Origin: Sphaerolaimus hirsutus
Taxonomy: Eukaryota > Nematoda > Chromadorea > Monhysterida > Sphaerolaimidae
Direction of reading: 5' to 3'
Assembly (NCBI GenBank): GCA_964036195.1
Contig: OZ038450.1
Span: 5,396,701-5,460,700, forward strand
DNA: 64,000 bases
Program-made: the position numbers and the translations under genes
The notes under the pieces: generated by a model
Told to the model about the DNA's origin: nothing
What the model saw: the letters and a program-made list of their open reading frames with translations, nothing else
Database searches by the model: none
In this document: positions 3,043 through 56,700 of the stretch, piece by piece
How positions within the stretch are numbered: the stretch's first letter is position 1
How the letters are laid out: every line of letters starts with the position of its first letter

Positions 3043-3265
3043 AAGCACCATGGGGTTTTTGGCGCTATCTGTCTGTGGCGCCATGCCCATGTAAAGCGCC
3101 ACGGGCGCTTTTAACGCTTGGCGCTATTTTTTCCCGGCGCCAGGAACAAAATGTCTGGCGCTGGCACTTGGCGCCATTGGAGCTTGGCGCTGGCGGTCAG
3201 AAAAGTGACATTACGCTTTTGGCGCTTGGCGCCAAAGTCCTGGCGCTTTTTGCATCACTAGTCAG
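3043..3265. repeat. Degenerate GGCGCC/GGCGCT array
   Basis: GGCGCC has mostly become GGCGCT/AGCGCC here, which suggests an older copy of the array seen at 92-294. The right flank is TGCATCACTAGTCAG, like copy 2. The plus-strand 218-codon frame at 2805-3461 runs over this repeat and is not a gene. Confidence 0.6.
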
Positions 3266-7700: not shown

Positions 7701-10700
7701 TCATATCAACCCTGCTCTGTTCGGCCAGCGTTCTTTTCGTATGATCCAACTCCGCCTTGGTTACTTCCAATCTGCTATTAGCATCGTCCAACCGCCTTTC
7801 AATAGCTTCTTTTTGCGCCGCCAACAAACTCTCATTATTCTTCCTTCTAGCGCACTCGGATTCCAGCTGTTCAACGCGGCGACGCAAGCGATCGGCGTCG
7901 GTTTGCACGGAGAGCAGCCTGGACGCGTCGGCGGTGCTCGTGTCGGCCGATTTTGCGTGCTTGGAACGAAGCTGGTCGCACTGTTTGCGCAACTGTGTAG
8001 GAAGAGTGACGGTTTTTGTTAGTGTTTTGAAGTGCAGTAACATGACAGAATACAGCGCAATTTAATAGGGTTGTTTGGCAGAGGAGGGGTTTTGTAAATT
8101 TGGACCCCCGCGGGGTCGCTCCAGATAGATAGATAGCTGGTCGATTTGGGGGGGGGGGCGGGTTTAGGGGATTGTAGCCCAAAATTTTGCCTCCGGGATA
8201 GATAGATAGCTGAGCGGGCTTCCGGGATAGATAGATAGCTGGCGGATTTGGGAGGGTAACCCCCCTCCCTACTAAACCCCTGTGGCAGAGACTTCACTTC
8301 ACCCCAGAAAATCATCTTCTACGTACTCAGTAGTTCATCGAATACAGAAATGAAGCTTCACCATCAGGTATTCCAGAAACTATTTACATAAAAGCGTTTT
8401 TGACGCCTCCAAATAAATATCAGTATAATGTAAATATATAGGATACAAATGCCAGCAGCCAGCTTGCTTCAAAACATTTGCAATAGCGCAAGATTTGTTT
8501 GTAAACGAAATAAAATACCACAAATATTCAGAATCCTCACATCACAAGTACCTGCTTAACGCATGTTTCCAAACGATTAGCCCGTTCTTCCTGTATGTCT
8601 TTGGCGCGCGTCAACGATTCATTTTCATCGAAAAGTCGTCGGTTTTCCTCGATAACGCTGATGCAGCACGCCTGCGTGAAGGATGAATCTGTTGTGGTTA
8701 TTTTTGGTAGTTTCAGATTACATAACTGGTATACTCCAGCGACATTACACCTCACAATGGAACCTACCGTATCCCATCTGAATAACAGAATAAACATAAT
8801 TTTTATTTCATTATATTTATCAAATCGCTTCTACTTTGGGTGAATTTGGTGCAGTTTTCCATGTGATCTTATTCATCAAAATATGGTAACATTCATTGTA
8901 AGGCGATCTGTCTGTCCAGTTTAGTTGAAAAAACAGACTCTGTCTCCAAATCCACTATCTGGGCTGGATGCAAGCTGCGGCTGCGTGGAGGCACCGCTAT
9001 TGTCCTGCAGCGTGACATTCTGAAATGAGGGAAAGGTGACGTATTTACAAACAGAAGACAGTATTCACGCAGAGTTGAAAAATTACACACAAATATGCAT
9101 AAATAAAGGGGCAAAATCATTGTAAATACACAAAAAGTCTGACACACATCGTCAAAGGCGCATAACACATCAATAGTGACTTACGAAACACGCTTCCGAA
9201 GATACATCAACCTAACTAAAACGTTCAAAAAAAACAACCCCGACAAACGCTTTTGCTTCGTCCAGGGCGACCGAATTTTCCCGGCGCAGCAAGGTCACAC
9301 GAGACATCCAAGTCGGGCTTGAGCTGCTTGCACACGCTGCAGTACGGATTCAGCGAGCGCCGCGTGCCACTCGCCGATCGACTTCGTGACGCGTGACGTG
9401 ATTGTGACGAGCGCAAAGCTGACCGACTGCGCGACTGCGGTGCGGGCCGGTTTTGAACTTTGATAGCTTACTGGGTATCAAGGGTTCGGTAGGGGGGGGG
9501 GGGGGTTGGGGGCGATTATTTATAATATGCTGGATCAGGGGTCTCCAATTTCACCCTCCGGAGAAGCGCTTTGCTAACAATCCAACCCCCGCGAGGGCCA
9601 AAATCTTGGAGACCCCTGTGCTGAATTAAACAGCTCCAATGCACGGTTATCAACCGCTTTTCAGATCGAAATTTACAAGGGGCGGCAGATTTAAATAGAA
9701 TATTGACTTTGTATTCACCTGAAATTGAACCTCAGCCGCGTTCACGTCAGTCGGCAGAGCGGCGACAGAATCATCGCTAATACCCACCGCAGTTGCGCTT
9801 CGGTGCATTTTCTTAATTTTTTCTTTCTGATCTTTCAATTTGTCGGCCATCGAAGCGACAAGACCATTTAATCGACAGTTTTCTTTCTGCGCCGCCTCAT
9901 GGATTTCTTTGAAGCGCTTCAAATCCCGATCGCGGGCGTTCAGCTTCAATTGCAAATCGTCTCGCGACTGCGCATAGGTGGTATTTATCGAAGTGAAACC
10001 AGGGGCCAGTTCCGCAAAATGAGACGTGAGAAGTGAAATGGCAAAGGCGAAGTAAAAGCGCAAAGGCGAAGTGAAACGGCAAGTGAATTGGCAAAAGCGA
10101 AGTAAAAATTAAAATTCAAATAAAAAGTAGTTTCGCGTCGCTTTTGCCGTTTCACTTGCCATTCACGTCGCCTTTGCGCTTTTACCTTTCCTTTGCCATT
10201 TCACTTCTCACTTCTCATTTTGCGGAACTGGCCCCAGTTCAAAACGACTGAGGCCTTCTGTGCATGTAAACCTGGTGTGCATGTAGACCCTAATTTTCAC
10301 TCAAAATCGCTAATTTTCATACCTTTTTATAGATTTTCACCTTCAAACATCCATTTTTAGTAATTGTTCACTTACTTTTAGCGATTTTTCTACCTTTTAT
10401 CAACATTTTGAAAAACGATTTATTGAAACCCCGCGAACACCCAACCCCCCCCCCCCAATTCTTTTTCCAGTTATCTACCATCCAGAGGAACGATTAGCTG
10501 TCGATCCAACCCCCTGGAGGGTCAAAATCTAGAATACATCTGACATGCACAGCGGGTAAACATGCACAGAGGCACAGGCCCGTTCAAAACACGGCACAAT
10601 AAATAAAATCGCTAATTAGTGCAGTAAATATTCTAGCAATGAAAAATACAAAACAACAAATTGGATGTATATTGTGTCCATAAAACGATGTTCCAAACAG

Positions 10701-13700: not shown

Positions 13701-14542
13701 GCAAATGCGATTTCGGTTTAATTCTATGCCAGTGCCGACAGCTCTCTATTCCGGAAACAGCGTTTAAAATTAACAATTAGAATTTTTGAAGGTGGGTTCC
13801 GCATCCAAAAAACATTCAAGCGCATAAGACAAAACAATCGTCAATGTGAAAAGAACATACCCCCTAGACATCTGCACGCGCCGCATAATCTGAGCTCAGC
13901 TAGCTGCTTATCACTGGCCAACTTTTCTTTCTCCGCTTTACGCCGACTATCGCATTCTTGCTTGTAGAGAAATGTCGTTTTCAAATTGTCATTTCGCAAC
14001 TCGTCTATCTGGCCGAGTAGTTCTGAAATGGCGGTATGGAGTTATTATCCGCAAATTTATCATTTGAGACAAAAGTATTGCATACAGCGCGTGCCATGAG
14101 CAATGGGTATGCAACAGACAAAATTATGCGGATTAACGACAAATTTGTAAAAAAATAAAGCAATGATCGAGTGCATGATTGCCTCACGATGCATCTTGAA
14201 AAATCAAGCAGTGTTTTCGCATGCATATGAATGACGGCCAGTTACATATAAGGTTCCGAAACTCTGCAAATAATTCATAATTCCCACCCACCCACAGCTG
14301 AGAAGTTCAGTCATAACATCAGAAGAGCATGCGCCGTATGCAATACTTTCGTCTCAAATGATAATTTTGCGGATAATAACTCCGTTTAACCTCTGAACTC
14401 TGAAACATTTTAAACAGAAGCCACAAACAGAGCAGAAGGAAAAACTGTCCCACCAACCATCGATTTCATCGAGGTGTTTGCGTTTCTGACTGGAAAGTTT
14501 CTTGGCTAATCGGGCCACATTTTCGACGTCCACGCTTGCCAT
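4798..14542 (-). CDS. Coiled-coil protein, CEP135/TSGA10 (Bld10) family
   Basis: Fifteen exons in transcript order: 14542-14458, 14022-13861, 13442-13165, 12093-11998, 11931-11821, 9967-9719, 9434-9249, 9019-8939, 8671-8552, 7992-7697, 7440-7349 (acceptor could be 7449), 6821-6673, 6276-5962, 5644-5444, 5055-4798. All phases agree and give 892 aa; the start is the first ATG (MASVDVENVARL). Heptad-rich coiled coils fill most of the chain. Exon 2 ends in CGACRC, exon 3 is Arg/Ser-rich, and exon 7 has RS repeats followed by PYCSVC (Cys 359/362). Residues about 701-747 carry EN-x-x-L-x-x-EL-x-x-AV, then YIAEL, then E-x-LL-x-EKERE. As I remember them, human CEP135 and TSGA10 have this block in the same order near their C-terminal region. 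Family members build the centriole cartwheel and basal body. The family call rests on this block; the exon structure is firmer than the name. Confidence 0.72.
7488..7660. repeat. CTAGTCAT-type repeat in an intron
   Basis: It contains reiterated ACTAGTCATC/GATGACTAGTGGG words and a duplicated GTAGAGTACCATTTTCAGAGACT segment. The same word is abundant at 33140-33690. It lies in an intron of the coiled-coil gene. Confidence 0.45.
8084..8282. mobile_element. hAT-type MITE, GGGGTTTTGTA tips
   Basis: The element runs from GAGGGGTTTTGTAAATTTGG to CTACTAAACCCCTG. It is flanked by an exact 8-bp direct repeat TGGCAGAG (8076-8083 and 8283-8290), the duplication length typical of hAT transposition. Internal words GATAGATAGATAGCTG and poly-G/C tracts recur in the other family members. 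It is intronic and non-coding. Confidence 0.8.
8731..8925. mobile_element. Short interspersed element, TATACTCCAGCGACATTACACC family
   Basis: It begins near TATACTCCAGCGACATTACA and ends near GGCGATCTGTCTGTCCAGTT. A close full-length copy lies at about 60558-60765, and partial or inverted copies occur near 13500-13645, 37030-37150, 41630-41820, 53395-53580 and 57530-57600. No coding frame and no confirmed target duplication were found. Its right tip sits about 15 bp from the donor of the coiled-coil gene's eighth exon. Confidence 0.5.
9536..9618. mobile_element. Minimal hAT-type MITE (83 bp), CAGGGGTCTCC tips
   Basis: It consists of little more than the inverted tips CAGGGGTCTCC and GGAGACCCCTG. 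The flanks are TGCTGGAT and TGCTGAAT (7 of 8 identical), fitting an aged 8-bp duplication. It lies in the intron between exons at 9719-9967 and 9249-9434 of the coiled-coil gene. Confidence 0.7.
10001..10236. mobile_element. Hairpin element with GGGGCCAGTTCCGCA ends
   Basis: The left end is AGGGGCCAGTTCCGCAAAAT and the right end is its inverse, ATTTTGCGGAACTGGCCCCA. The arms are built from AAGTGAAATGGCAAA-like words, so the whole unit folds as a hairpin. The outer tip (GGGGCCA) is shared with the CAGACCCTGTAAAATG subfamily that forms the introner-like introns. Confidence 0.6.
10698..11192. mobile_element. hAT-type MITE with 8-bp duplication GTTCCAAA
   Basis: It starts CAGGGGTTTAGTAGATTTGG and ends CTACTAAACCCATG. 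The exact 8-bp repeat GTTCCAAA flanks it at 10690-10697 and 11193-11200. The interior holds GATAGATAG words and long G runs. Intronic, no transposase. Confidence 0.85.
11249..11750. mobile_element. hAT-type MITE with 8-bp duplication GTGACCGG
   Basis: The terminal inverted repeats CAGGGGTCTCC and GGAGACCCCTG are perfect, and GTGACCGG flanks both sides (11241-11248 and 11751-11758). The interior has CAGCTATCTATCTATC words, C/G homopolymers and a T-rich core. With the copy at 17935-19093 it defines the family. Confidence 0.88.
12384..13062. mobile_element. Degenerate AAAGCGCTTTTTT element
   Basis: The left end TAGGGATGTTTAAAAAGCGC is matched in inverse near the right end by GCGCTTGCCATCCCTA. 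Internal segments (an ACAAAACCATTGAAAACAAC-like stretch and GCGCGTTTGCGCGCAAAAA) recur in the element at 16888-17570, so they are one lineage. No clear 8-bp duplication remains. It lies in the coiled-coil gene intron before exon 4. Confidence 0.55.
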
Positions 14543-20800: not shown

Positions 20801-23800
20801 TCTTTTAGCGATTTTTCTCCCTTTTCTTCCTTCTACACCCTGAAAAAACCTATATATTGAACCCCCGCGACCCCCCCCCAGGGACGTAGCCGGGATTTTT
20901 GAGCGGGGGAGGGATTGTATACGGAGCCCGGCGAACGGGGGGGGCGGCGCCCCCCCCCCCTAAAATTTTACCCCTGTAGTAGAGGAATGGCGCCATGGCG
21001 CTGGCGCCATTCGTAGGCGCCACGCCATGGCGCCACTGACGTTGGCATTGGCGTCAAAACACCAGCATACGTCTGTTTTTCACAGGCATATAGAGCGACA
21101 TGGACAGGAATTGGGTCCATTTTCACTGACTTTGAGGCCGCGGAGACCAGTCAGCCGAAAATATATGCTGTGAAGGGAAAATTTTTTCAAACTGTCGACA
21201 AAATCGTCTTCTGGAAGTGCCATTTCTGGCACATTTTTTGGTCCGGCCCGGGAAGGGGGGGGGGGGGACGGCCGCCCCCGCCCCCGCCCCCCCCTGGCTA
21301 CGTCCTTGCCCCCCCCAACCCCCCTAGAAATTTTTTAGGCTATCTATCCCTCCGGAGGAGCGATTTGCTATCTATCCAACCCCCCGGGAGACCGAAATCT
21401 AAGAGACCCCTGCAGTTAGTGCCATTACCTTCCACAAATTCCACCACCAATTTTTTAAGCAACCATAAATGTTCATGTGTAATTTCCAGCCAGACCCCCT
21501 GGACAACTATTTATGTAAACATTTGCCTCCTCCACAACTCAGACGTGCAGCACGAAATCTCGCAAGTATCCGTGGAAACTGCCGAGGGCCCCAGCTGGCC
21601 GCCGGGCGCCCCGCCTCATTTCCACACGAAAAATCGTCATGAATTGCTAAAGTGGGAATATTTCACCGCCACGCATATATTCAAAAACGAGGCTGATATC
21701 AACGTGTATAAACTTGACGGGGCCGATATGGAAGATATTAAAAGGGCCGTGAAAGAAGCCGTTTCATTTTTGCAACAGCATGAGGGGGTTGTAAAATTCG
21801 AGAGATTGATTTCGGGATATAGGTTGGTTGGATAATTCTGGACCCTTTCTGGAATTTTTGTCGAGTTTCTTGATAAAAATTTGCTCACCATCTTTTGTGC
21901 AATGTGCTTCTTGACAATGAGTATCCTGCGCAACTTCACAATTTGTCAACAAACGTCTGCTGAAAGCTCGAATTTACAGGAAATAGGCGTGTAGAATGTT
22001 TCAAATACCCACAGTTGGACGACATTTTATTTGTGATTTCCAAACCTTGTCATTCAGCGACTCACTATCTACTAGGGTTCAAACGGGATTGACTTTTCGG
22101 GATCGGGATTGGTTTTTTGAAATTTTGGGATCGGGATTGGCCGGGATTGGGGTCACGGGATCGGGATTGGCCGGGATTGGGGTCACGGGATCGGGATTGG
22201 CATTTTTTCGGGATCGGGATTGGGATCTTGGGATAGAGTATTTGGCCCATGTTCTGGCATTCACAGTTGTTCGTAAAGGTCTCAAAACACTGTTGGATGT
22301 CATAAAAGTGGCACAAAATGAACGATGGGGTTTGCGTTCACATTTTAGCATGCAAAAACGTCATTTTCTCACTTATGATAATTTCCACTAATTTTTCCGG
22401 GATCGGGATCCCGGACTTTGGAGTTTCCCGGGATCGGGATTTGAAAATTTTCGGGATCGGGATCGGGACTGCTATATCCCGGAATTTCACGGGATCCGGG
22501 ATCGGGATCCCGTTTGAACCCTACTATCTACACCCCTTTCCCACCCCCCCCCCATTCAGAATGCTGGACCCCACTCGCGGCATGGACTACATGCTCGACC
22601 TGTCCTACACGTCCCCCAACCGCATGCGCCGGGTGCACCTGCTGCGGCCGTTGACGCGCGCCGAGATCGTCCAGGAGGTGCCCTACGTGACCGAGGACAC
22701 GAACGTGACGCTGGCGGTGCCCATCCGGCCGGACGAGGTGCAGGCGGCCAGGGCCTTCGTGGCCAGGTTCGCCAGGCTCTGCGCCACCGCCGTGCAGCAG
22801 GAGCAGAGGTTTAGGTGAGTGATTGATTTGAGTGGGTTGAGGGATCTCCCCCCCCCCAAACAAAGTCCATGTCTGGTCAAATTTCATGCGAGATTCGTTC
22901 AGTTTCGTAAAGTTTTGTAAACATAGGCTGCTTTCTTCTACAGAAATTTGCGGAATTGTTTTCAAAGAAATTTTAGCGACTGTTTTGAAATATTTTTATT
23001 TTAATTGTTTTTTAACAAAGGTCCCCCACCCTTTCCAATCGAGTTCATAAAACAACACGTTTTTAAATTTTTATTAATTTGTCCAGTGTCTTATCTAGGT
23101 CAACTGATTAGCCCCGCCCCCTTAACAACAATCGTCCCAATCCGCGCAGCCACGTGCTTCTGGCGCTAGTGGACGGGGGCGAGCGTCCGATCGACCAGCG
23201 CTTCACCGGCCTGTCCGAACTGTCCAGGGACGTGGGCACCGTGGCCGAGCGGTGCGCGCCCAGCGCCATATTCGACATTGTGGACGTTCGTCACGTGCAA
23301 CGTCGGCCCGACGCCGTGCACACCATGGACGTGCTGGTGCCACTCCCAGACCCTGTAAAATGCCTTGTAGACTGGCAAATGTCATTGAAAATGGCAAATT
23401 TCATGCAAAATGGAAAATGTCATGGGGAATGGAAAAAGTCACGGAAATTGGGAAATGTAAAGTGCCAAAAGTCCTATAAATAAAATACCCTGTAAAATGG
23501 CAACTTCCGTTTGCCATTTCGCAGGGAATGTTACATGACTTTAGACACTTTGCATGACATCTGACATTTTACAGGGCATTTTACAGGGTCTGGGAGTGCC
23601 CCCAGGTGGGCAGATACGGCGCAGGCAGATTGTACGTCCTGCTGTCGCCCTGGGTCGAGCTGATGCCGGATGTATTGAATCGGATCAGATTGAATACTAT
23701 TCGCGGCTATCAAGTCTATTTTCCGATCGCTTTTCATCAATTTTATCCGAAAATATCCGGAAAGGGATGGGATTCTACCGTGAGAAGTGCGAATGGATTG

Positions 23801-24787
23801 GGCGTGAACGATCTGCCGAGAAATGACTTTCTCATGCCGTTTTCCGATGTGTCGCAGCATATTGAGGTTTGTAAAATTTAAACGTTGTCACATTTTATTG
23901 AACAAGCGACTTTTGTGTTAAAAAAAATCGATTTTGAATTGGCAATGGTGTTGTAAGATCACCGTGACGATTCGTTTTTATAAGGTTTCATTAGGTTCCA
24001 ACGGAATTTATATTCTGCCCCTGACTTGCAAGTCACGTTTCAACTATTTCATAATTCTTTCGCATTTGCGTAAATAAAGCTCGTAACTCTTGACCATTTG
24101 GCTCTACACACACACACACACACTGTAGAGTTGACAACGACACCAAATGTCAACTGATTCTGATCCAAATTCAAAGCTTTGAATTGGTATCGGACATTTG
24201 GCTTCGTTGTCAACTAGTGTGTGCAGGGCCTTTACCCCAACTCCCCCAAATATCAACTCCAATTCACAGGTGCACAAAGACGTCGGCCGTTTCAACTACG
24301 ACGATTTCAGCTTCGCCAGTTTCTACGGCGCCGACTTCATATCGGCGCGCGCCAGCGCCGGCAGGGCGGCCCGCAGCCTGGTGCCAATCCCAGACCCTGT
24401 AAAATGTAAAATGTCATGCAAAGGGTCAAAAGTCATGGAAAATGCCCTGCAAAATGGCAACTCGGTTGCCATTTTGCAGGGCATTTCCATGACTTTTGAC
24501 ACTTTGCATGACATTTGACATTTTACAGGGTCTGGGACTGTCCCCTGGCCGACTTGTTCGTGAAGCGCGGCACGAACTCTGCCGCGGGCGACCGACTTCA
24601 CGTGCTGCGCGCAACCGACCCGCAGATTCTGGTCCATTATCACCACGGGCAGTGCAAGAGCGAGCTGCCGTTTGATGTGCTGGCACAGTGCCAAGCGTCG
24701 GTTAGAATGGGCCTGGCGTCAAAGGCGCAGCTGGCCACGCTGTTTCTGATGCAGCAGAATGGGGAGAGCGACCGCAGTCGGGGATGA
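14836..24787 (+). CDS. CHPF: Chondroitin polymerizing factor (CHPF / MIG-22 type)
   Basis: Twelve exons: 14836-15035, 15395-15609, 15988-16175, 16281-16396, 19559-19667, 20200-20398, 21543-21822, 22560-22814, 23150-23336, 23606-23866, 24270-24380, 24548-24787. All phases agree; 786 aa, close to human CHPF and MIG-22. It is a type II Golgi protein with a membrane anchor at about residues 9-32. CHPF proteins pair with chondroitin synthase to extend GlcA-GalNAc chains. The catalytic-type acidic triplet is replaced by VPDTTY (residues 187-192), as in CHPF. Later come LLKWEYFT, GMDYMLDL, VPYVTE, LLSPWVELMPDVLNR (where synthases have DxD) and LHVLRATDP. These substitutions argue for the factor rather than the synthase. 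The 109-bp exon 5 was found by phase and by GLCVRKLLNISCTDEW, filling the expected gap. Introns 9 and 11 are hairpin elements; intron 11 ends in TG, not AG. Intron 4 contains the assembly gap. Confidence 0.9.
16783..17890. mobile_element. Fold-back element with AGACCCCGTTTACACGG ends
   Basis: The left arm starts AGACCCCGTTTACACGGATT and the right arm ends with its inverse, AATCCGTGTAAACGGGGTCT. The arms match for more than 100 bp (GTGACGACTCGACAA, TTGAGTAAAAAACTTCCATA and similar). It is interrupted by the hAT-type element at 16888-17570. It lies in CHPF intron 4. A related palindrome with GCTGCGTTTACACTGCGAC ends lies at 54227-54624. Confidence 0.65.
16888..17570. mobile_element. hAT-type element, TAGGGTTGG tips, AAACGTTTTTT words
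   Basis: The left tip TAGGGTTGG and right tip CCAACCCTA are flanked by the exact 8-bp repeat AGTATGCC (16880-16887 and 17571-17578). The subterminal regions reiterate AAAAAACGTTTTTTT. The interior is related to 12384-13062. It is inserted into the left arm of the 16783-17890 fold-back, so it is younger than that element. Confidence 0.85.
17935..19093. mobile_element. hAT-type element with 8-bp duplication CACTGAGT
   Basis: Tips CAGGGGTCTCC and GGAGACCCCTG have exact CACTGAGT repeats outside (17927-17934 and 19094-19101). The interior matches 11249-11750, with CAGCTATCTATCTATC words, AAATTTTTGGCTACTACCCC and ATTTTTCACC-like core. It carries a second element at 17973-18613. Intronic in CHPF. 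Confidence 0.88.
17973..18613. mobile_element. Nested hAT-type element, TAGGGTGTCAAA tips, TTTTCCG words
   Basis: Tips TAGGGTGTCAAA and TTTGACACCCTA are flanked by the exact 8-bp repeat GCTGCCCC (17965-17972 and 18614-18621). Nearly the whole interior is reiterated TTTTCCGTTTCCG and TTCCGGCTG words, in one direction. It sits inside the 17935-19093 element. A short sister copy is at 29796-29927. Confidence 0.88.
19146..19515. repeat. GGCGCC-type repeat containing the assembly gap
   Basis: TAGTGATGCGATGG on the left and CAATCATTAGTCGACTG on the right resemble the tips of the GGCGCC arrays, and TTGGCGCCC and AGCGCCATTGGCGCCGGC lie next to the gap. Positions 19240-19439 are 200 Ns. It lies in CHPF intron 4, so no exon need be lost: the flanking exons 19559-19667 and 16281-16396 join in phase. 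Confidence 0.7.
20494..21412. mobile_element. hAT-type element interrupted by a second insertion
   Basis: The left tip CAAGGGTCTCC and right tip AGAGACCCCTG with CAGCTATCTATCTATC words place it in the CAGGGGTCTCC family. The flanks CAGATAAT and CAGTTAGT match at 6 of 8. Between about 20882 and 21306 there is an insert bounded by GGGACGTAGCC and GGCTACGTCC, which contains a GGCGCC patch at 20988-21040. It lies in CHPF intron 6. Confidence 0.6.
22073..22523. mobile_element. hAT-type element, TAGGGTTCAAACGGGA tips, CGGGATCGGGATT words
   Basis: Tips TAGGGTTCAAACGGGAT and ATCCCGTTTGAACCCTA are flanked by the exact 8-bp repeat CTATCTAC (22065-22072 and 22524-22531). Both subterminal zones reiterate CGGGATCGGGATTG words. 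A related degenerate array lies near 19780-20075. It lies in CHPF intron 7. Confidence 0.88.
23337..23605 (+). mobile_element. Introner-like element forming CHPF intron 9
   Basis: The intron starts GTGCCACTCCCAGACCCTG and ends CAGGGTCTGGGAGTGCCCCCAG, each the inverse of the other, so donor GT and acceptor AG come from the element's own tips. Flanking codons join in phase 0 and the joined protein (MDVL-VGRYG) aligns with human CHPF (MDLL then SKKHP) without extra residues, as far as I can recall that sequence. Internal words ACTTTGCATGACAT and CCATTTTGCATGAAAT-like stretches fold back. Confidence 0.8.
24381..24547 (+). mobile_element. Introner-like element forming CHPF intron 11, acceptor TG
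   Basis: It begins GTGCCAATCCCAGACCCTG and ends CAGGGTCTGGGACTGTCCCCTG. Removing exactly this unit joins RAARSL to ADLFVKRG in phase 0, which fits the family. The expected CCCCAG acceptor reads CCCCTG. Another in-frame choice (donor inside the element, acceptor after TTTTACAG at 24528) would add about 17 residues and uses a poor donor. Confidence 0.72.
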
Positions 24788-28375: not shown

Positions 28376-31300
28376 ATGTTGTCGCCCATTGCGAAAACGA
28401 TTTTTTTACTAGCCGCCCTAATTTTTCTGGCGTCAGCGCCAGGCGCCAAGAGCCAGAATTTTGGCGCCGGCGGCGGCATAAATCCATTGGGACAGTCGAT
28501 TAATTTGGGTGTTGGCGGCAGTGCCAGTTATTTAGATGTCAATCTTATTAATGAGAGGGAGGGCAGTGTGGATAGGAGGGTCAGCGATGGTTGGTTTTTG
28601 AGTTTTTGGATTTAATTCTTGCCATTTACTTCTCACTTTGCGGAGCTGGCTAGGGGTAGGACATTTTACACTTTTTAAGTAGTTTTGTAACTTTGTAAAT
28701 ATCTGCGAGCAATCGCATTGGACATCTATCACTTTAGATTTGGAAAACAACAACATTTTTTTGACTTATCGTCGCAATTTACGAGCAGAAGCCTCATTTA
28801 TAGTATCAAATAGAAAGACCTCTCGCCTATACCACGAGCATGGTTGGTTTTAGTAAAATTCTTTTTACTAAAATTGTATTTTATTTTTATTAAAATTGTA
28901 TTTTATTTTTATTTTATTCATTTTTCCGTTTATTTTATTTTATTCTGAAATGTCATTAATAAAATAAAATGAAACCATTTTACAAAAATTTTACAAATAT
29001 TTTACAAAAATTTTACAAAAAATCGGAAATCTTGGATGCAAGGACATAAAACAATGTGCATGCTAGAAGCATGCAGATGAATACAAAAAAAAATTATGTT
29101 AACTTTTGACACTTCTGAGTTGTGAGGTAGGCATTTTGTATTTTGACCCTCAGGAGGTCCTGGATATATGCATCTAATTGCTCCTCCCGAGGGAAGATAC
29201 CTAAAATTTGGTTACTTTTTTGGGTAGGGGAGGGCTTGCGGGGTTCAATATATAGGCTTTTTCAAGGTATGGAACAAAGAAAATTGGAAACAAATGACAT
29301 AAATATGTGATCTTTAAGGTGAAAATATTTTAAAAAATGTGAAAATTTGCAATTTTGACCAATGATATGTTTCAATCACAACAATGAAAGATTGGCAGCT
29401 AGGTAGGAACTTAAGCAACATGATAGAAAACTTTCTATAGAATTTAACAGACACTTGAGTTTTTGTAAAATTTTACTAAAATTGTACAAAAATTTGAATT
29501 ATTGTACAATTTTACTAAAATTTTACAAAAATTCAAATTTTAGTAAAATTGTATTTTTATTTTATTTATTATCCATTTTATTTTATTTTATTTTATTCTC
29601 TAATTTTCCATTTTATTTTAATTTTATTTTTATTTTTTTCTGAGATTTTGCCAACCCTGACCACGAGATATCGAACACAAAGTGCTTGTAGTTGAAACCG
29701 GGGAATTAGCTCACGATCATGTTGTCCACATTATTATGAATACCTAAACTCATTTTACAAAATGCGGTAATTATATAAAATAAATCTATGATACCTAGGG
29801 TGTCAAATTTCCGTTGTCCGGCGGCTGAAATTTTTTTCCGTTTCAGTTTTCCGGCAAGTTCAAATTTTTGCCGTTCCGTTTTCCGACCGCTGAATTTTTT
29901 TCCGTTAAACTTTTTTTTGACACCCTAATGATACCCTATTCGCCTGAAAAATTCCCTCCTTGAACAACTCCCCCGAATAATTTCCTCCTCGAATAATCCC
30001 CCCCTGTTAGACGAGTGAGGAAAACATAATTACCCCCTTAAATAATTCCCCCCTTAAGGCATATGTTTGTTTTGTCCATTATAATTTGAACAAAAATGGC
30101 ATTTTATTTTGTCTAAAAAGCATACCTATTTTGTGAAATATCTTGATATAAATATTTGTGACAATTTTACGAATTAATAATAATTCCTCTCCTTGTCCTT
30201 GAATAATCCCCCACCTCGAGTAATCCCCCCTCGAAAAAGCCTGACGAAATAATAATTCCCCAGGGGGATTATTCGAGCAAATAGATACGATAAGTATTAC
30301 TTTTGATGGGTTTATTTGAGCGATTATTTTACCCTCAAAATCATCCTAGAAAAAACCTTGATCGACTTTCAGGCTGGGTGAACATGTACCCGTTCGGGGA
30401 GCTGTTCTACGATCGCGAGGTGCTCGACCAGCCCAACCACGACACGCAGATCGATCTCGACTTTTACTTTCCTTTTTATGGATTCAGATTCAATTATACG
30501 TTTGTGAGTGTGCTGTTACTTGTTTGTGATTTTTTTTCCTGGTGCCAATCAGGAAAAAACAGGTAACAGACAGGTTGACATTTTACAGGTAATTTTACAT
30601 GACTTTTGACATATTGCATGACATTTTACACGGTCTGGGAGAAACCCCAGCGTTCAAACGCGAGTACGGCCTCGTTTTTGAATAAATGTCAAAACAAATA
30701 TGGAAATATCAGTCTCGTTCTCGAAAAGCCAGGTAGTTTCGTTTGAACCCTGGTGCCAATTCTGCACGTGGACAAGTGGTTCAGGAAAAGTGGTCAATGG
30801 CCCTTGTTAAATATGATAAGCCAAGTGAAAAGTAGGTCTGTAAATTTAAGTAAATACTTATCACTTGCATATTTAATTCAGTTGACTTAATGATTTAATT
30901 GACCCGACCTCTCCGGGCCGCCAATCGAAAATCACACCGAGTACACATTTCAAACCCCATCCATTCAAACCCCACCCATTCAAACGCAGATAGTGCCCGA
31001 TGGAATACTGGCATTCAGCCGACCCGAATGGATTCAACCCCCCTACACCTTCCCCAATCCGAGATGGCCGGATCCTAGAAATGGCAGGGACCCCTCTTTT
31101 GTGGCGCCGCTGTACGCCGACGCCACCTATCAATATGTGGGGGAGGTCAGGATTAGCCATTTGTGGTACAGGAGCGTGCACAGGTCCGACCGCTTTGCGT
31201 GTTTTTCGATTTTGCTTGAAAATTTTTGGCCAGTCATTTCAAATATGGGAACCATTCGAAGGGGGATTAAACAGGGAGGAATTTTTTTACCTTAGAGTAT

Positions 31301-37300: not shown

Positions 37301-40300
37301 TAACATCCCTCTACTCTGCATCAATGGGGGGAGGCATGGCGACCAACTACAGGGTGGGTCGCCATATATGCAACAATTTTTTGCCAGGTTTTCAGTGTCC
37401 CAAACAAGTACACCACCCACTTGATTAGCTACACTAAAGGGGCTGTATCTCCAGTTGTGGGGGTGGTAGAAAGCTAAAATTTTAGGGGTATCTTGGCAAC
37501 ACCCACCCCTACTATACGCCAGTGGGGCAGCTCTCGACGACCCAGTACAGTTTGTGCCGCACTGTATAAAGTTGTTGTTTTTTTTAAAGCGACCCAAGTG
37601 TCCCAAGTAAGTTCACCACCTAAAGGAATTAAAAAATTTTTTGAGAACATACCTTATATAAAAACTGGATCAGGTTTTCACCCTAGTTCTGCTAATTAAA
37701 ATTTTTTTCCTTTGTTTAGCCACCCCCATCATAAATGGCAGACCAAAAATTTCACTTTAAACCAATGTTTTGTTCCACACTTTAAAAGTTGGTTTACAAA
37801 GTTCAGTAGAGGAGGGTCCAAGGTTCAAAGTTACATAAACAACATGACCTCCAAAATCGCAACATAAGGAAAAATTTTTGGGGTGAATTCTATGATGTCA
37901 TAATGATGTCATTGCAGGAACAAAATTTTACAGACTTTTCACTTTTTCATTCAACCCAAATAAATTTACTTATGTCGCCATTTTGGAGGTCATGTTGTTT
38001 ACGTAACTTTGAACCTTAGACCCTCCTCTACTGAACTTTGTAAACCAAGTTTCAAAGTGTGGAACAAAAAAATTGGTTTAAAGTGAAATTTTTGGTCTGC
38101 CATTTATGATGGGGGTGGCTAAACAAAGGAACAAATTTTAATTAGCAGAACTAGGGTGAAAACCTGATTCAGTTTTTATATAAGGGTTGTTCTCAAAAAA
38201 ATTTCTTAATTCCTGTAGGTGGTGCACTTACTTGAGACACTTGGGTCGTTTTATAAAAAAACAACTTCTTTATACAGTGTGGCACAAACTGTAGTGGGTC
38301 GTCGGGAGCTGCCCCACTGGCGTATAGTAGGGGTGGGTGTTGCCCCTAAAATTTTAGCTTTCTACCACCCCCACAACTGGAGATACAGCCCATTTAGTGT
38401 AGCTAATCAAGTGGGTGGTGTACTTGTTTGGGACACTAAAAACCTGGCAAAAAATTGTTGCATATAGGGCGACCCACCCTGTAGTTGGTCGCCATGCCTC
38501 CCCCCATTGATGCAGAGTAGAGGGATGTTACAAGTATATATTCACAAAGTTTCAGCTCTATAACCCCACCATAGCCCAAGATATAGCTTCCGAAATGAAA
38601 TAAAAAAATGGGTGGCTTACTTGACCGGGAAGGTGTTTACTTTGCGGTCCGCCCAGTATACATTTAAATAAGTAATGTGGCAACACTTGGCCTTTTTGCA
38701 GGCGTTGTTGTGATACCTTAATTTCGTGGTGATAAATATGCACCCTAAATAAACCCTGAAAACACCATTCGATCTCCCAAACAATCGCTATCGACCAATA
38801 CTACAATCACCCACCTCACCTTCCCTTAACAACCACTCTCAATGACAACAACAATGACAATGACAACAATGACAACAACAACGACAACAACAATGACAGT
38901 GCCAATCCCACCGCCCACCCCGCAGGCGGTGATCGACATCGGCCGGTACATGCCCTACCCCGAGTGCAACATGTACTCCAACTCGGAGTGCCCCCACCAC
39001 AGGGGCGCCAAGCACTGCGTCATGAGCACCCAGAGCACGTGGATGGGGTCCCAGCAAGTTTGCTGCTATGGTTATCAGGGCTGGTTGATGATGTCCGATG
39101 ACTATGAGTTTTATAGCGATCAGTTGAATGCTTTTAGTCCCGGCACGCCGTTTAGGTGGGTGGAGTCGTTTTTTTATGTATTTTGAGTATTTATTTTTAT
39201 TGTAGTTTTCATGCGACACCCGAACATTGTGAAAGGCCGTACATGTAAATACATGCCGTGAAAAGCTATGCTTGGATGCGAATAGAATGTATTTATGCGT
39301 AATCCGGAAAAAAGTAATGCATACATTTATCTCGATGCTCGGCGAGATTGTCTCACTGCCTCTGCACCTAGGGCAAACGCACAAGAAACACCTCCCAGCA
39401 CAATGCCTTACCAACAAATTGAAAATGTTTCTTAGATGAGCAGTGTCAAACATCCATCATTCCCACCTCCAAGGTCGTCGATCCTGGGCGCGTACCCGTA
39501 CCGCGTGCCGCCCTTCGTGCCCAGTATGTCCAACTACTTCAACGACCTGATGCCCTACCAGCTGTGCTGCAAGTACGCCAAGCACTGCGAGTTCTACTTT
39601 TGGAGGCGCCAGTCTTCCGCGTGTCAGGATTATAGGCCGCCCGGCGCTGGTTGGTTGTTGTTTTTATGATGAATTTTGGGGATTCTTGAAGATGTAAATT
39701 TTTGAATTTTTGTTGATTTTTCGGCAGTTCAATTTTATATGATTGTGATAGTTTTCATCGTGTGTTTTCACAAAAACTCGAAAAAAATCTATTCTGGTTT
39801 CAATCGTTGGTTACAATTTTCAGGAATAATTGAATTGTGTAAAAGCCACTGACGGCACCATGATTTTGCGACGTTTGCAACATTAACCAGCAGAAAAATT
39901 GCCAGAACGATATTTTCGTCGTGATGTAATAAGTTCCGAACTCCAATAAAACAACGATAAACTACTGGCGCAGGGTTCGCGTACGGCGAGCCCCATTTCG
40001 TCACATTTGACGGAATCAGATACACGTTCAATGGGAAGGGTCACTTTGTACTCGCCATGGCTAACCACCCATGGCACAAACTCATGATACAGGTGCGTAT
40101 TGATGTGCTATTATACTGTTTGAAATAAATAGTAATATTGGGCTTGAATTGTTCACGATGTGAGGACACTTATTTGCACTTCAAGATCAAAGATAATATT
40201 CATTATACCTTCGTGTATAGTAAATACCGTATTTCCTCGAAATACCCGCCTAGAAATGCCCTCCTCCTCGAAATACACTCTCCCTCGATTAACCCGCCTC

Positions 40301-43300
40301 GTTTGCACTCTGAAAAAGTAAACCATCTGGGGGTATTTCGAGGAAATACGGTACTATAACCATTGAGTACAAGTTGATAAAATTACAAACTCGTTTTGAG
40401 CAGAAACTCGCACAAACGTCGAGTTTCATGACTTTTTTGCCACTTACAAATCTCACCAGTTAAACACACACACAACTTCATATCCTTACTCACGCATCGC
40501 GCGCCCTACCGCACCCTACATCCCAATTGAATTGAGGCGTCTAATTCTGAAAGTCGACAAGTCCACAAAATGTGATTTTGAGTAAATCGCATTTTAAGTT
40601 TCAAACCCAATTCCAGGCCCGAGGTGCGTGTCCAATTTGGCTCTCTCATGCTTTCCATTAAGTTCCATATGTTGACAATAAAGTGTCAAATTTTCAGCCC
40701 CTAATCTCAACGTATATGTGAAAAATGGGGTGTCCATAAAATTCCATTCGGTCAGAGCAAAACTGTTTTTGGGAGGGAAATGGACTTGTCGCCTTCTTGC
40801 AGGCAAGAACATTTTTGTTCCCGCCCGCGTTGCGCCTCCCTTATGGGAAATTTATGTACTTGTCGGCTTTTAGAAATCGGTGCCCATAGTGGACTTATCA
40901 CATTTCTTGCGTTTTTTTCACATAAAAAAGGATGCGCAGGATGGACTTGTCGACTTTTAGCCCAAAACTAAGTGGAGTTGTCGACTTCTTGCCCAAAGTT
41001 TTTGCATTTTTCCCCAAAAATGTCAAATTTGGCACTATGCCATATGGGCATGTGAGGTCAAAAAATTTATGGAAAATGATGAAAAATGTGCGGAAGTAGC
41101 CCCAGATGACGTTTCCGGGCCTAACTCGAAATTTTCATATTTTGGACTTGTCGACTTTTAGAATTGGACGCCTCAATTTGATGCGCAGGTGCGCATGGAG
41201 CAGCCGCCAGAGACTTTATGGGCGTTTATCCGAACGCAACTGTGATAACGGGCGTCGCCGTGCAAGAAAACGACTCTGATGTGGTGCAAGTTTTGGCCAG
41301 AAAACAGTTTAGAAGGTGGAGGTATAAAACAGACGTGTTGGTGGACGGCGTGAAGAGATTTTTTGATAGGCCCGCCTGGAAATACCAAGTTTTTACTGGT
41401 GAGTACGTTTTGAGAATGTTGAGGGTGATTTGTGATTAGCTGGTGCCAGTTCCACAAGTGGAGAAGTGAGAGGTAAAATAGCAAAAAGAAGTGAAATGGC
41501 ACGTAAATTGGCAAAAGCGAAGTAAAATGGCAAGTAAATTGGCAAAAGCGAAGTAAAAAAATTTAAAGAGTAATTCTCGTCGCTTTTGCCATTTCACTTC
41601 TCACTTCTCCACTTGCGGAACTGGCCCCTGGACAGACAGATCGCTATACAATGAATGATACCATATTTTGATGAATAAAGACACGTGAGAAAGTGCGCCG
41701 AATTCACCCAAAGAATGTGATAATGTGCAGCAATGTGATAAATATGATGGGAGAATTTTTTTCTCGTTCTTTTATTCAGATGGAAAATGGCAGATTTCAT
41801 CTTAAGGTGTAATGTCGCTAAAGCATATTCCAATGGGCAATTTTTTGTTTTTTTTGCAGGGCTCTCCCTGTATAACCCCGAGCGGAACATGAACCAGTCA
41901 GAAATTCACATCCAACTGAAATCTGGGGCCGGAGTGCGTATCACTGAGGCGTATGGCAGCTTGCAAGTGGAAGTTTTACTACCGCCTTCGTTTAATCGAA
42001 CTTATAGGGTGGGTCATTTTGCAGGATTTTGCAGCAGCCCATTAAGCGGGAATGAGAGCTCAGCGTCGATTCGACGTGAAATGATGACGTGAAATGTTTT
42101 CGTGAAATTAATTACACGAAAACATTTCACGTCATCATTTCACGTCGAATCGACGCTGAGCTCTAATTCCGGCCTTACAATGTGATACATTAATTTGTGT
42201 GCCAGAGAAACAAATCAAATGCCAATTCCGCAAGTGGACAAGTGACGAGACAAGTAAATTTAGAAATGAAACGCATATCATTCCTGGTCACTTGACGTAA
42301 AACATTGCTTACTACTTACCACTTTTCTTGTCACTTGTCTGCTTGCCAGATTTGCCCCAGACAAACTAAATCGCATTGAATAAAAAAAACAATTTTCAGA
42401 GCATGCGCTACGACGAAGATCTCGAACGCATGGTTCCAGTGCTCACATCCGCTGGCCGCGGCAACACATATTACCAAATTATGGGACTTTTGGGCGTATA
42501 CGACAACGACCCCTCAGGTGCCAGTCCCAGACCCTGTAAAATGCCCTGTAAAATGTCAAGTGTCATGCAAAGTGTCAAAAGTCATGAAAAATGCCCGGTA
42601 AAATGGCAAACGTATGTTTGCCATTTTACCGGGCATTTTTAATACATGTCTTTTGACACTTTGCATGATACTTGACATTTTACAGGGTCCGGGACTGCCT
42701 TCAGATGAGTTTGTCACGCTGGATAGCGGCACGCCAGTGATCCAGCCGCAGTCGAATAACATTGTTATGAACACTGAAAGTGAATTGAGGAGCCTGCATT
42801 TTAGATTTGGCAATGAGTGGATGGTGGATGGGTCGGATCCGAGAATTGGGCCCGGTGAGTTGACATGGGGGATTATTCGAGCTGGGGATGCTCTGGGGTT
42901 TGTTTTGAATTGATGTGTTTTTTTGGTGTGTTAAGATGTATGTATTTGTGCCATGTACACATCAAGTCATTTCCTAACTTTCTGTTTTGTTCCGATCTAG
43001 GTTTTCGAGTTAAGTACTGCAGGGTGTCTATTTTATCTAGGTAAATATATTTAGGTATCACGGTGTAAACGTAAATACGTTTTAACAACTATGGTGGACA
43101 AGTGACAAAAGGTGATAAGTTATAAATCAAGTGATTGTTTACTCATTCTGCACTTGATGTGAAGTACTTGTCACCTTTTTACATACCATTTTACTATCGA
43201 TGACCTTTTCAACACTTACCGCTTTTTCTTGTCACTCGCCCATTTGCGGAATTATTAAGCACATATGGAAATTCTCCCTGTTTTACCATCATCAAAATTT

Positions 43301-45949: not shown

Positions 45950-46105
45950 ATGCCAATACCAGACCCAGTAAAGTGTAAACTAAAGTGTCAATTGTCATGA
46001 AAATTTCAGTAATAAAATATATTCTTTCTTTTTTGTTTTGATTAACATTTTACATGACATTTGACACTTTACTTTACACTTTACAGGGTCTGGGACTGCT
46101 CCCAG
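45950..46105. mobile_element. Introner-family hairpin outside a gene
   Basis: ATGCCAATACCAGACCCAGT on the left and CAGGGTCTGGGACTGCTCCCAG on the right are the same tips as the introns at 23337-23605 and 42518-42704. The interior is AAAGTGTAAACTAAAGTGTC and its inverse. It has no flanking exon, which shows the family moves independently of genes. Confidence 0.65.
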
Positions 46106-49106: not shown

Positions 49107-51733
49107 ATGCAGCGGTGCGTCTTTGTTGTGCTGCTGGCGGCCGGCGCTTGGGCCATTCCGATTGACAACGGGCTGCAGGGAGAACCGGAAGTCGAGTGTC
49201 TGGGAGATTCGATTCAGGTAGGTCGATTTTTGGGGCGGGTCGATTTTTTTCGCTGGGAGATTCTAGTTGACAGTGAATTTGTTATGTAGTGGGGTTCTTA
49301 ATTGGGTTGAGTGTCGCGAATAAATGTAGATTTACAGACAGTAAAGCAACGGACTGGACATAATGATAAGCGCAAGTGAAGTAATTAGAAAACACGCGTG
49401 TGAAAAACTTTTCTGAAAATAAATTCTTTGCCACTTATAAGTGCACTTTTAATTTTCCCTACCACTTCTTTCTCCTGTCTCTAATTATCTTGCGGAATCA
49501 CGCCACCCCCAAACTTTTTTCAATTCTAAATACAAACGTCTTCCAACACAAAAATAAATTTAAAAATACCCCCCCCCCCCCCACCACAGATCAACTTCAA
49601 CACGCGCAACCCGTGGGAGGGCAACGTGTACGTGAAGGGACTGTTCGCCGACGACGGGTGCAAGGTGGTCGGCACGGGCGCCAACAACCTCGCCTCCATC
49701 TCGCTCGGCTTCGACTCGTGCAACGTGCAGAGACAGCGCAGTCTCGAGCCCAGAGGAGTCTTTGTCCACGCCACCGTCGTGTTGGGATTCCATCCTGTCT
49801 TCTTGACCAAGGTGAGTTGAGGGAGGTTTTGTAGCGATGGTTTTTTTGGTGCCTCTCTTTTTCGTGAGTATGACACACGGAAAATTATGAACCTCGGTCG
49901 AATTTGTAAATTGGTCTGTGCAGTAGAAGCGTTAATCAAGATCTAGGTAAAAACCGCCCCCAGATCGATTCCACCAAAACTTACAACATAAAAACCTCAC
50001 CACAGGTGGACCGAGCTTTCCGCATCCAATGTTTCTACATGGAGGCGGACAAGACGGTCAGCGAGGAGCTGGAAGTGAGCCCCATCACGACCGGCTTCGC
50101 CACCATGAACGTGCCCATGCCCGTGTGCAGGTTTGTCTAGGCTGCCGAATGTTGCCACCGTTTAGTTACGCGGTACCGTAAATAGTATGCGGTGAAAAAC
50201 GCCGGTACGGTTAATTTTTACCGTTTACCGGTAATTATCGGTGCATCATGGTGTTTGAGAAACATCCGGTGCCAGTCCCAAATGCCCTGTAAAATGTAAA
50301 ATGTCAGGCAAAATGTCTAAAGTAATGTAAAATGCCGTAGAATGAATGTAAAACATTCGTTTGCAATTTTACATGACTTTTTGACACTTTGCATAACATT
50401 CGACATTATAGAGGGTCTGGGAGCCGGAAGCAGTAAATGCACTATGGCAATTGATCAAATGACTGCAAATGCGCGGTGAACTTGAACCAAAAAATTACCA
50501 CCCCAACCCCCCCCCCCCTCCCCAGATACGACATCCGCGAGTCGTCCGACCCCGAGAGCAATCCCGTACAGTTCGCTTTGATCGGCCAGTCGGTGTACCA
50601 CCACTGGATCTGCGACACGGACACCGTGGATACGTTCTGCATGCGCGTCTACAGCTGCAAGGTGGACGACGGCACCGGCTTGAATGAGATTCAGCTGATC
50701 GACGAGGTGGGGTTTTTCGAGGGTGCTGGGTGGTTAGGTTGTTTTGAGGAGAAAAAATGGAGAAAATCGTTTGGAGAACTCAACGGCGATGACTGGGGCC
50801 GCTGGGCCACTGATAAATATATTTAAAACAGATTTCTTCGATGACAAGCAAAAGCAAGATTTTAAATTTTATCTAAAGTCAAAGTGCAAGTAAAGCTCCA
50901 AACAGTGTAAAAAATTTACGACATTTTGAAACCTGACTCGTCATTAATTAACTCGTAATTAATGACCTCATAAATATCTACAACACGTACAAAATGTCAC
51001 CCCCCAACCCCCAGAGTGGCTGCGCCCTAGACCGCAACCTGCTGGACAACCTGGACTACCCAGAAGACCTGCGCGCCGTGAAGGAGTCTCACGTGTTCAA
51101 GTACGCCGACCGGCCCAACACCCAGTACGAGTGCCAGATCGAGATCACCGTCAAAGACCCCGGCACCGAGTGCGCTAGACCCACTTGTGGAGAGGCACCT
51201 GGCACTAGGTAAGGGGGTTGGGTTGGTTGATGGGTGAAATAGGTGGATGCCTAAATGGGGAAGTATTTGAGTGTGATGAAGCTCGATGATTTTTGTGTTG
51301 AGGGTCCAAGATTTTGCACACACAGGCATATTTTTCCGTTATTCTCATCAGTTGAGAATTACCAAGGGATGTGCCAAACAAAAGAATATTTTCATCCAAA
51401 TTAACCCACAAAAATCCCCAAAACCCACAAAAAACCCACCCACCCAGGGGCAAGCGGTCAGCCTCCTCCAGCCAATCAGCTGGCAGCGTGGACGTCTCGC
51501 CCACCAAACCCCTGTTCATCGCCGACCTGGACCTCACCGAGGAGGACATCCCCGCCGCCCTGCTGCACCACGTCACCAACAGACGCCCCGCCCACTTTGA
51601 GCCGGCCCAAGTGCAGACGGATCAGATGTGCGCCTCTAGTACGGCTATTGTGTTTGTGGCTGCTTTGTTGGTGCTCGCTTTTACTGGCGCCGCGGCTGTT
51701 GTCGCCATTTTGTACACTAGGAGGTCTAAGTGA
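49107..51733 (+). CDS. Cuticlin-like ZP-domain membrane protein
   Basis: Exons 49107-49217, 49590-49811, 50006-50130, 50526-50706, 51015-51208 and 51448-51733 join without phase conflict to 372 aa. The first ATG opens a signal peptide (MQRCVFVVLLAAGAWA). A ZP domain fills about residues 31-278: VECLGDSIQINFNTRNPWEG, CKVVGTG, FDSCNVQR, then HPVFLTK-VDRAFRIQCFY, CDTDTVDTFCMRV, GCALDRNLL. RGKR (278-281) is a furin-type cleavage site directly after it, followed by a Ser-rich and acidic linker, a single membrane helix (about 343-366) and the short basic tail YTRRSK. Nematode cuticlins share this plan: they are cleaved at the furin site and polymerise through the ZP domain in the cuticle. The exact paralogue (cut or cutl type) cannot be named. 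Confidence 0.92.
50268..50427. mobile_element. Introner-family hairpin inside a cuticlin intron
   Basis: CCGGTGCCAGTCCCAAATGC on the left and AGAGGGTCTGGGAGCCGG on the right are the family tips, with TGTAAAATGTCAGGCAAAAT inside. It lies within the intron 50131-50525 and is not co-terminal with it. Confidence 0.55.
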
Positions 51734-53731: not shown

Positions 53732-56700
53732 TCATTCAATATCATCATCATCATGGTCATCGACACTGGACAACACCCTGGATTCGGCAGCCGCCAATTT
53801 CGAGTCGAGCAGGCGCGAATAGCGGGTGGTGCGCCGCCGCCGGATTAAAAGGCCGTACGCCCAACAGCAGAAGATTGTGAACAGCACTGTGAATTGGGGG
53901 GGGGGCATTTTTTTTTTTGGGGGGGGGGTGTTTGGATTGTGGGGGGGGCGCGTGGGAAAGTTTCGGATGGGAATTGTGGGGGGGGGCGAGAAAAGTTCTG
54001 GTGTAGATTAAACAGCAGAGGGAGTTGTGGGGAATTCAGTGAAATAATGTAAATATTATTTCTATGATGGCTAGAATCTTCCCGACGTTCTTGAGTGGGA
54101 TTTTTTCCATCGATAAAAGCAAAAAACATTATTGCATTCCTGAGCTCGTTATAAGCTCTATACCATGTGCGCTTTATGTATTTATGTTCAGTAACTTAAC
54201 AACTGTATGCTATACGTGGCTAAAGCTGCGTTTACACTGCGACTTGTGCCGACAATTCGAAAAGTGAAAAAGTTCCATAATTTTGGAATAAAGTTCCATA
54301 CATGCAAGAAAATGCAGTGAAGTATACTCACTAGTTAACTGCACTCACATGCCAATTTGCGGATTAATCGTCCATGTCGTTCCAGAGTTATAAGCATTTT
54401 AAAAATATTTTCAAAAAAGCGAACCGACAAGTGAAATTTTTTTTGAAATGCTTATAACTCTGGAACGACATGAACGATTTATCTGCAAATTGGCATGTGA
54501 ATGCACTTAACTAGTGAGTATGCTTCACTGCATTTTCTTGCATATATGGAACTTAATTCCAAAATTATGCAACTTTTTCTCTTTTTAAAATTGTCGGCAC
54601 AAGTCGCAGTGTAAACGCAGCTTAAACAAAAAGAAAGGTAGTAATAATAAATGGGCCAAAATTATTGTCGGCAATGGGCAAATATTTTATAATCTTTAGG
54701 GTAATGTTCTTGCCAATAAATCGAACTAAATTGCATCAATCGTAATCGCCAAAAATGTATTCAAGAGTAAATACAATACTCACTCACCCAAGATAACAGC
54801 TAGTGATGCCAAAAATATGAGCGCGATTGTGGTGAATGGCATGTGGAAGCGTTCTTCCAAATCATGTTTCACCTCGTTGAACTTTTCCTTGAGTCGTTCC
54901 ACATCGAATAAGGACGACATACCGTGGGCTGTCTGTAACACGTTTGGACTAAAGGGGTCTATCTAGGACATATCTAGGGGCCTTACTTACAGGTATTGTA
55001 ATGACGAGGTCACGAAAAAATTCTTAGCGTTGCACCCAAACAGATATTTTTTATCAGATACAGATCTCGACTAAGCAATTCGAATAACTCCCCATAGCGT
55101 TAAAAACACACGGCCCGTCGAAAGTGCGTATGGAATGCACAGTCTTATAATTTTATATAAAATAAATAACCTGTGGTTTAGAATCGATAATTACGAGAGA
55201 AAAATAGTACCCTCTGAGGAAAGCCCGTCAAAATCGTCAGTCTCCTGGGCCTTGGGTCTAATTGAATCAGGCCCCTGGTCACTTCGTCAAGTACAATATT
55301 GACGGTGCGTTGCGTTCAATTTTGATGCGCAGTAACTCACGTCGACTGGCACGATGCCAGCATCAGTGACGGTGCACTCGTCGTCGTGTATGGCGCAGGT
55401 GGCGCGCGTGCTCGCCGGGTCCAGGTAGTACCACTGCCAGATGCCCAGCCTGCGAAAGTGGTGAAAGAGTGTACCGTAAATGCGTGGTTCTCGTGGTAAC
55501 TCTTCAAAAACACCGGGGCCAGTCTGGAGCCCTGTGAAGTCAAGTGTGAAGTCAAGTGACAAATGTCATGTAAAGTGTCAAAAGAAATAAGAAAAGGTTT
55601 TATTACCTCACTTTGCATGACAATTGACACATAACTTTACATTTGTCATGACAATTGACACTTTGCATCGAATTTTACATGACTTTTGACACTCTACTTC
55701 AAAATTCACATGATCTGGGATTGGCACCGGTTGGCACAATAAATCATCGCCAAAAACTCACTGCTGCAAAGTGGCAGCCGGCAAGCCGGGACAAGCCGCA
55801 TGCAAGCAGTTCAACTCTGCGGCGAAAGCGGCGCAAGTCTTGTCGCAGCCCTTTCTCGCCGCCGACCAACACAGTACACTATTTTCCCTGTAGTGCTTGC
55901 TTTTCAAGTACAAAACTGCAGTCACGTGCACGGCCGCGGCGACCTTGTGCAGACACTGGGTGGATATGTTCGCGCCCGGCTGGTGCAGTTCCCGCTCCAC
56001 GTGCACGAGCACGTTGAGCAGGTTCAGGTGCAGCCCCGCAGCCCCGCTGGACACCTTGGACACCTGCGGTCGGTTGGGGGTGCGATTCAACATTGACTTT
56101 TGAAACTTTGTTGCGTTGGTATCTTGATTTGATGTTGCCTGAGCCTCTCAAGTGGGAAAAAGGGTGAACGTTGTCAATTGAGAACTTGTCAAGTGACAGT
56201 GCAGTTGATCAGGGGGCCAAATTCCACGCGCCCGGCAGATAATTTTTTGGCAGAGGGCCAACGGTTTATTTCTGATAGTTCGTCAGGCGGTTACAATTGT
56301 CGCGTGGGGCTCGCGTCGCTATAAGGCAGCGTTAATGAAAAAACAGACAAGTAGTATCGCGAGACTTACACACACCTGACAAAATATTAAAAATAAAACT
56401 TTTACTTTCCTTATCATAGAAAATGCGCATCGATAATATTTCAAGAAAAGTTATGAAAACTAAACTATCAATATATATATAACTTCGTAAATAAAGCTGG
56501 AAACGTATCTAAAAACCGTACAATGTTCTGCGAGCCGCACAGCTTGTTCATGGCCTCGGTGTTCTTCTGCAGACACGCCTGCAACGTGGTGTAGTTGTCG
56601 ACGCGCGACTGCCACTCGTCCACGAACAGAGACAACCGCTTGTCATCCACCTGGGGCACGTCATGTTTTTTTGGTGTGAAGAAGTGTGAGGGATTGGTAA

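Follow-up and report, generated by a model that had tools for sequence, protein, structure and literature searches.

The plus strand of the 64-kb window (the whole stretch of nematode DNA that was analysed) carries a CHPF gene, five exons of which join into 350 residues with no inner stop. The joined protein gives a CHGN (PF05679) match over residues 2-333 with E = 2.9e-56. It also matches human chondroitin sulfate synthase 2, in two separate stretches (E 1.8e-32), and the human alignment is gap-free at two exon junctions, A and B, each of which is occupied in the DNA by a hairpin element (Table 1). The element at junction A, copy A, begins with GTGCCACTCCCAGACC and ends with GGTCTGGGAGTGCCCC; its arms (23334-23411 and 23528-23605) form an inverted repeat with 79% complementarity, and the RNA of 23334-23606 is predicted to fold at -119.6 kcal/mol (z = -10 vs shuffles). 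The earlier note had described the outermost 20 bases of 23337-23605 as inverse copies of each other, which holds once an offset of 3 bases is allowed, with 18/20 positions identical between 23337-23356 and the reverse complement of 23583-23602, but does not hold for the full interval, as the terminal CAG (23603-23605) lies outside the inverted-repeat register. One arm of copy A also contains a head-to-tail repeat of a 19-base unit (23358-23452), and this may be the reason for the extra length of this copy.

Table 1. Coordinates of exons, hairpin elements and adjoining triplets in the window.
Feature	Position	Strand	5'/3' triplets	Remarks
CHPF exon	22560-22814	+		joined model
CHPF exon upstream of copy A	23150..23336	+		homolog alignment
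Copy A, hairpin element within CHPF coding sequence	23337..23602	+	CTG/CAG	inverted repeat, folding, tip match
CAG after copy A, putative acceptor	23603..23605	+		5' counterpart CTG 23334-23336
CHPF exon downstream of copy A	23606..23866	+		homolog alignment
CHPF exon upstream of copy B	24270..24380	+		homolog alignment
Copy B, hairpin element inside CHPF coding sequence	24381..24544	+	CTG/CTG	inverted repeat, folding
CTG after copy B 3' tip	24545..24547	+		same as CTG 24378-24380; without AG
Last CHPF exon, through stop codon 24785-24787	24548..24787	+		homolog alignment
Mesh/SUSD2-like exon upstream of copy C	42400..42517	+		start by TTTTCAG acceptor, by eye
Copy C, hairpin element in VWD-region coding sequence, Mesh/SUSD2-like gene	42518..42701	+	CAG/CAG	
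CAG acceptor after copy C	42702..42704	+		same as CAG 42515-42517; phase-1 intron
Copy D, ATGCC tip	45950..46102	+	CTG/CAG	no known exon adjoining
Copy E	50269..50424	+	CCG/CCG, 3' tip shortened	inside ordinary intron between two cuticlin exons
Copy F	55517..55727	-	CCG/CCG if shifted one base, else CCG/CGG	intron of gene model (by eye; without Pfam family)
Copy G, shortened	30542..30648	+	CTG/CAG	intron of Mesh-like gene (by eye)
Related element, second tip subfamily (GTGCCAGTTCC)	41443..41627	+	CTG/CTG	between two Mesh-like gene exons
Related element, second tip subfamily	10003..10234	.	CAG/CAG	beside minus-strand coding-like sequence
Copy at 42219	42219		degenerate	
Sense-oriented GTGCC tips	23337, 24381, 42518, 50269, 30542, 41443	+		
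Sense-oriented GTGCC tip	55727	-		

Precise removal of 23337-23605 leaves CHPF continuous and in phase, as had been proposed, and the resulting junction 23336/23606 is gap-free in 14/14 homologs (the organism was named for one of these matches, a bee). Junction 24380/24548, obtained by removing copy B in the same way, is gap-free in all 12 of the homologs that cover it (2/14 do not), one of which has a gap four residues upstream. At the position preceding junction A, 14/14 homologs have I, L, V, C or A, and none has Gln; at the one preceding junction B, 12/12 have L or I. This indicates that the exonic CTG at both sites is long-standing coding sequence rather than a piece of the element. A third element, copy C, interrupts a gene model with a VWD domain encoded around the element and C8-3/MUC4 and Sushi domains encoded farther downstream, a combination that we take to mark a Mesh/SUSD2-like gene; joining 42517 to 42705 is gap-free in 3/3 homologs found (two named, both Trichinella). 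In all three cases excision would take out the element and exactly three further bases. Judged by protein continuity, the element borders coincide with those of the predicted intron in three coding copies from two genes.

Alternative splice forms were compared with exact excision by collecting in-frame GT-AG pairs that lie within 45-60 bases of the borders and are stop-free over a short stretch, ranking them by splice-site score (best 8 for copy A, best 8 for copy C, all 5 for copy B) and scoring 5/7, 4/5 and 4/7 of the non-exact pairs for A, B and C, respectively, against homolog profiles. Among the scored forms exact excision came first for all three copies, with 213.9 bits for A (vs 206.5, 206.1, 205.8, 204.0 and 204.0), 213.9 bits for B (vs 209.6, 208.1, 207.1 and 205.4) and, against a profile built on three sequences only, 215.9 bits for C (vs 203.1, 202.2, 198.1 and 197.8). 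Retention of the element leads to a stop in each case and lowers the scores to 67.2, 162.3 and 193.4 bits, respectively. The splice-site scores, which come from a generic weight matrix, place the exact GT-AG first among in-frame pairs for copy C and third for copy A (4.5, vs 7.6 and 4.7 for pairs that keep 25 and 6 element codons); on the same matrix the donor context GTGCCA is weak, at 1.3 and 3.5 vs 10.9 and 4.6 for two other CHPF donors. The elements could be partially exonised, with inner GT-AG pairs adding 6 to 25 codons to CHPF, and the better site scores of such pairs in A and B point in this direction; we nevertheless regard this as very improbable, since these forms lose 4 to 10 bits against the profiles and would place at the junctions an insertion absent from all homologs.

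Copy B departs from the other two coding copies in ending GT..TG, so that its exact end offers no AG, whereas the other 2/3 are GT..AG. Each of its five in-frame GT-AG pairs retains element codons, loses 6 exon codons, or does both, and none restores the exact protein. Its splicing is therefore doubtful, as an exact GT-AG is unavailable; on the other hand, TG 3' splice sites, though unusual, are known, having been described as alternative sites in 36 human genes (PMC2374985), so copy B may be spliced as is. Copy B is also a near-perfect hairpin (24378-24550 folds at -126.1 kcal/mol, z -18.6), and copy C folds comparably far from its shuffles (z -19.8). The lack of a suitable GT-AG pair and the hairpin fold of copy B would fit a reading in which the coding copies represent harmful, improperly spliced insertions in disabled or polymorphic alleles. 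This is plausible for copy B alone and unlikely for the set, given three exact in-phase cases with the protein well kept on both sides, two of which end in AG. Copy B could represent a stage before the acceptor arose or one from which it was lost; the arms of copies B and C are equally alike (0.938 in both), so age does not decide between these and B is not marked as the youngest. If transcribed, the introns at 24381-24544 and 42518-42701 would form near-perfect long hairpins and are a possible, mirtron-like source of small RNAs.

The three coding copies belong to a larger family. The tip GTGCCAGTCCCAGACC has 10 matches in the window with at most 3 mismatches, vs 0.22 expected from shuffles, and the copies that the earlier note had placed at 42518, 24381 and 45950 are all present. 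One of these 10 matches, at 3152, is without a partner tip and looks like a chance match. Local alignment with five seed copies gave 13 merged regions across the 64 kb, seeds included and some of them weak, and seven aligned copies, with some differences among them, share GTGCCARTCCCAGACC(CTGTAAAATG) at one end and, at the other, ...CATTTTACAGGGTCTGGGACTGNCCC. A second tip subfamily has the outer tip common to the family followed by GTGCCAGTTCC, and its inner sequence is different. Across 8 measured copies the arms are 73-94% alike, which lends no support to recent activity. The window gave no Rfam match at gathering thresholds, and a transposase Pfam family was absent from the 10 ORFs scanned in it (2 matched CHGN and 8 had no match). 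Viral contigs (19 loci + 1) and bacterial or archaeal genomes (5) also contained exact matches to the tip, one per locus, which were set aside; they look like chance, with ~7 expected by simple arithmetic for an 18-base pattern in 257 billion bases.

Copies E, F and G and the element at 41443 were rejected as whole introns because they are located inside larger ones; the cuticlin piece, from the gene around copy E, has 68 matches, many of them lacking an organism name, and every named one is a nematode. The element at 10003-10234 was left out of the coding copies because of a TATGCGCAG acceptor farther in, though its flank reads as coding; no Pfam family was found for the neighbouring pieces. 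Such copies bear on the possibility that the introns at A, B and C are older and ordinary, that a hairpin inserted into them and that later deletions left the element alone. Ordinary introns do hold relatives, namely copy E and 41443 (with homolog-defined exons on both sides) and, by ORF reading only, F and G. In A, B and C, however, the element extends on either side to an identical base at the exon border, a triplet being the only addition, and threefold trimming to one and the same base is unlikely, so that we consider this history very improbable. We also observed that the GTGCC tip lies on the 5' side of the sense strand in 7/7 paired copies within gene models of known strand, a small sample in which the gene strand around 55727 was judged by eye. 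This orientation holds also for the 4 copies within larger introns, and antisense copies may have been lost. Inverted repeats of other kinds occur in the same window: a Mesh-like gene intron contains an unrelated near-perfect palindrome (42046-42173) with two 64-base arms that are 95% complementary and no loop, and long foldbacks with other tips are found at 37633-38204, 54223-54623, 47492-47801, 53395-53584 and 14038-14383, among the 25 longest of 96 inverted pairs.

The triplets bordering the elements, with the 3' one taken as following GGGACTG and four further bases of the tip, bear on the origin of the acceptor. Nearly all take the form CNG, and the middle base agrees between the 5' and 3' sides in 4/7 copies in the strict register (p 0.48), in 5/8 when copy E is included (p 0.06) and in 7/10 when the ambiguous copies F and 42219 are counted as matches (p 0.008); the three clear misfits are all CTG..CAG. 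A 3-base target duplication on CNG/G (the stroke marking the insertion point) is thus possible, and a 5-base duplication (CCNGG) was dropped because its outer bases match the tip consensus. Known introner families are reported to have flanking duplications of 3-9 bases (PMC9860276), and one of 3 bases would fall within this range. If the duplication is true, the GT would come from the element tip and the AG from the duplicated CAG; if there is none, the element would carry the CAG itself, and copy B and 41443 differ. The proposal that the element brings both GT and AG is accordingly borne out for the GT, which lies within the tip, while the AG may either belong to the element or derive from a copied target site.

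Taking together the observed element, its copies, the coding flanks, the frame and the continuity of the protein, we consider it likely that 23337-23605 is a spliceosomal intron derived from a non-autonomous hairpin DNA transposon (MITE) that inserted into a CHPF exon, that is, an introner-like element. This was already the interpretation of the earlier note; it is the best-supported reading and is strengthened by the three coding-exon copies in two genes. We propose that the MITE, mobilised by a putative transposase, inserts after an exonic CNG, where its GTGCC tip would put a donor GT at the junction and where CNG/G resembles a proto-splice site. A CNG would also follow the 3' tip and, if it is CAG, would together with the pyrimidine-rich stretch before it form an acceptor, allowing the spliceosome to remove the element and one triplet, which would restore the exon and leave the protein unchanged. 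In the version that we prefer the triplet would be a duplicate of the target; a CAG target would then yield an AG at once, while CTG targets, as at both CHPF copies, would have to gain one by a putative CTG-to-CAG step; copy A would now be CTG..CAG and copy B still CTG..CTG. In the alternative version CAG would be part of the element and would have been lost by copy B. More tentatively, and with the odds against it, we suggest that the CNG/G target rule is itself the proto-splice site, CAG targets becoming introns at once and CTG targets after a T-to-A change in the duplicated triplet. Under such a rule the copies at 24381 (CTG..CTG), 23337 (CTG..CAG) and 42518 (CAG..CAG) would be the states seen within a single 64-kb window.

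Foldback MITEs are short and non-coding and have long inverted repeats, and exonic insertion of a MITE usually disrupts the gene. The family described here is like them in being short and non-coding with long inverted repeats and in having copies both within introns and away from known exons, but unlike usual exonic MITEs it has three coding copies placed for possible splicing out. Fritillaria borealis offers another comparison: work by Henriet and colleagues in 2019 reportedly found transposon-derived, non-canonical introns in this animal, most of whose introns are said to break the GT-AG rule. The present case would likewise be an animal with transposon-derived introns, but, unlike what is reported for Fritillaria borealis, two other CHPF introns here are GT-AG. 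With the DNA-transposon introners described by Gozashti et al. 2022 (PMC9860276), the family has in common inverted-end repeats in coding exons, coincident borders of element and predicted intron, and in-phase removal that would leave the protein unchanged. That survey places introners among animals and land plants in two groups, both animals, with copepods named, and describes introners of Chrysochromulina in which the element carries the 5' splice site and the 3' one is co-opted; its main text makes no use of the word nematode (PMC9860276). Work on changes in nematode introns reports 168 new introns in Caenorhabditis and mentions introners as an example known from other organisms (PMC9169325). 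Among the matches listed in our literature search, which most subscription papers lie outside, no title or abstract opening concerned nematode introners. The elements described here would make a credible set of nematode introner-like introns, judged from sequence.

The origin of new introns in animals is an open question; introners have been reported in few animal groups, and the formation of new introns by hairpin transposons is rarely seen in animals. Introner-like elements are of an already known kind, and what may be new is the target rule of this family. With three hairpin introns found in two genes over only 64 kb, many more may be expected in the genome, in which case intron birth, the making of acceptors and the cost of new introns would become directly measurable in an animal. 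The proto-splice-site idea would also gain a possible basis, as the preference for such sites might stem from the target rule of a transposase.
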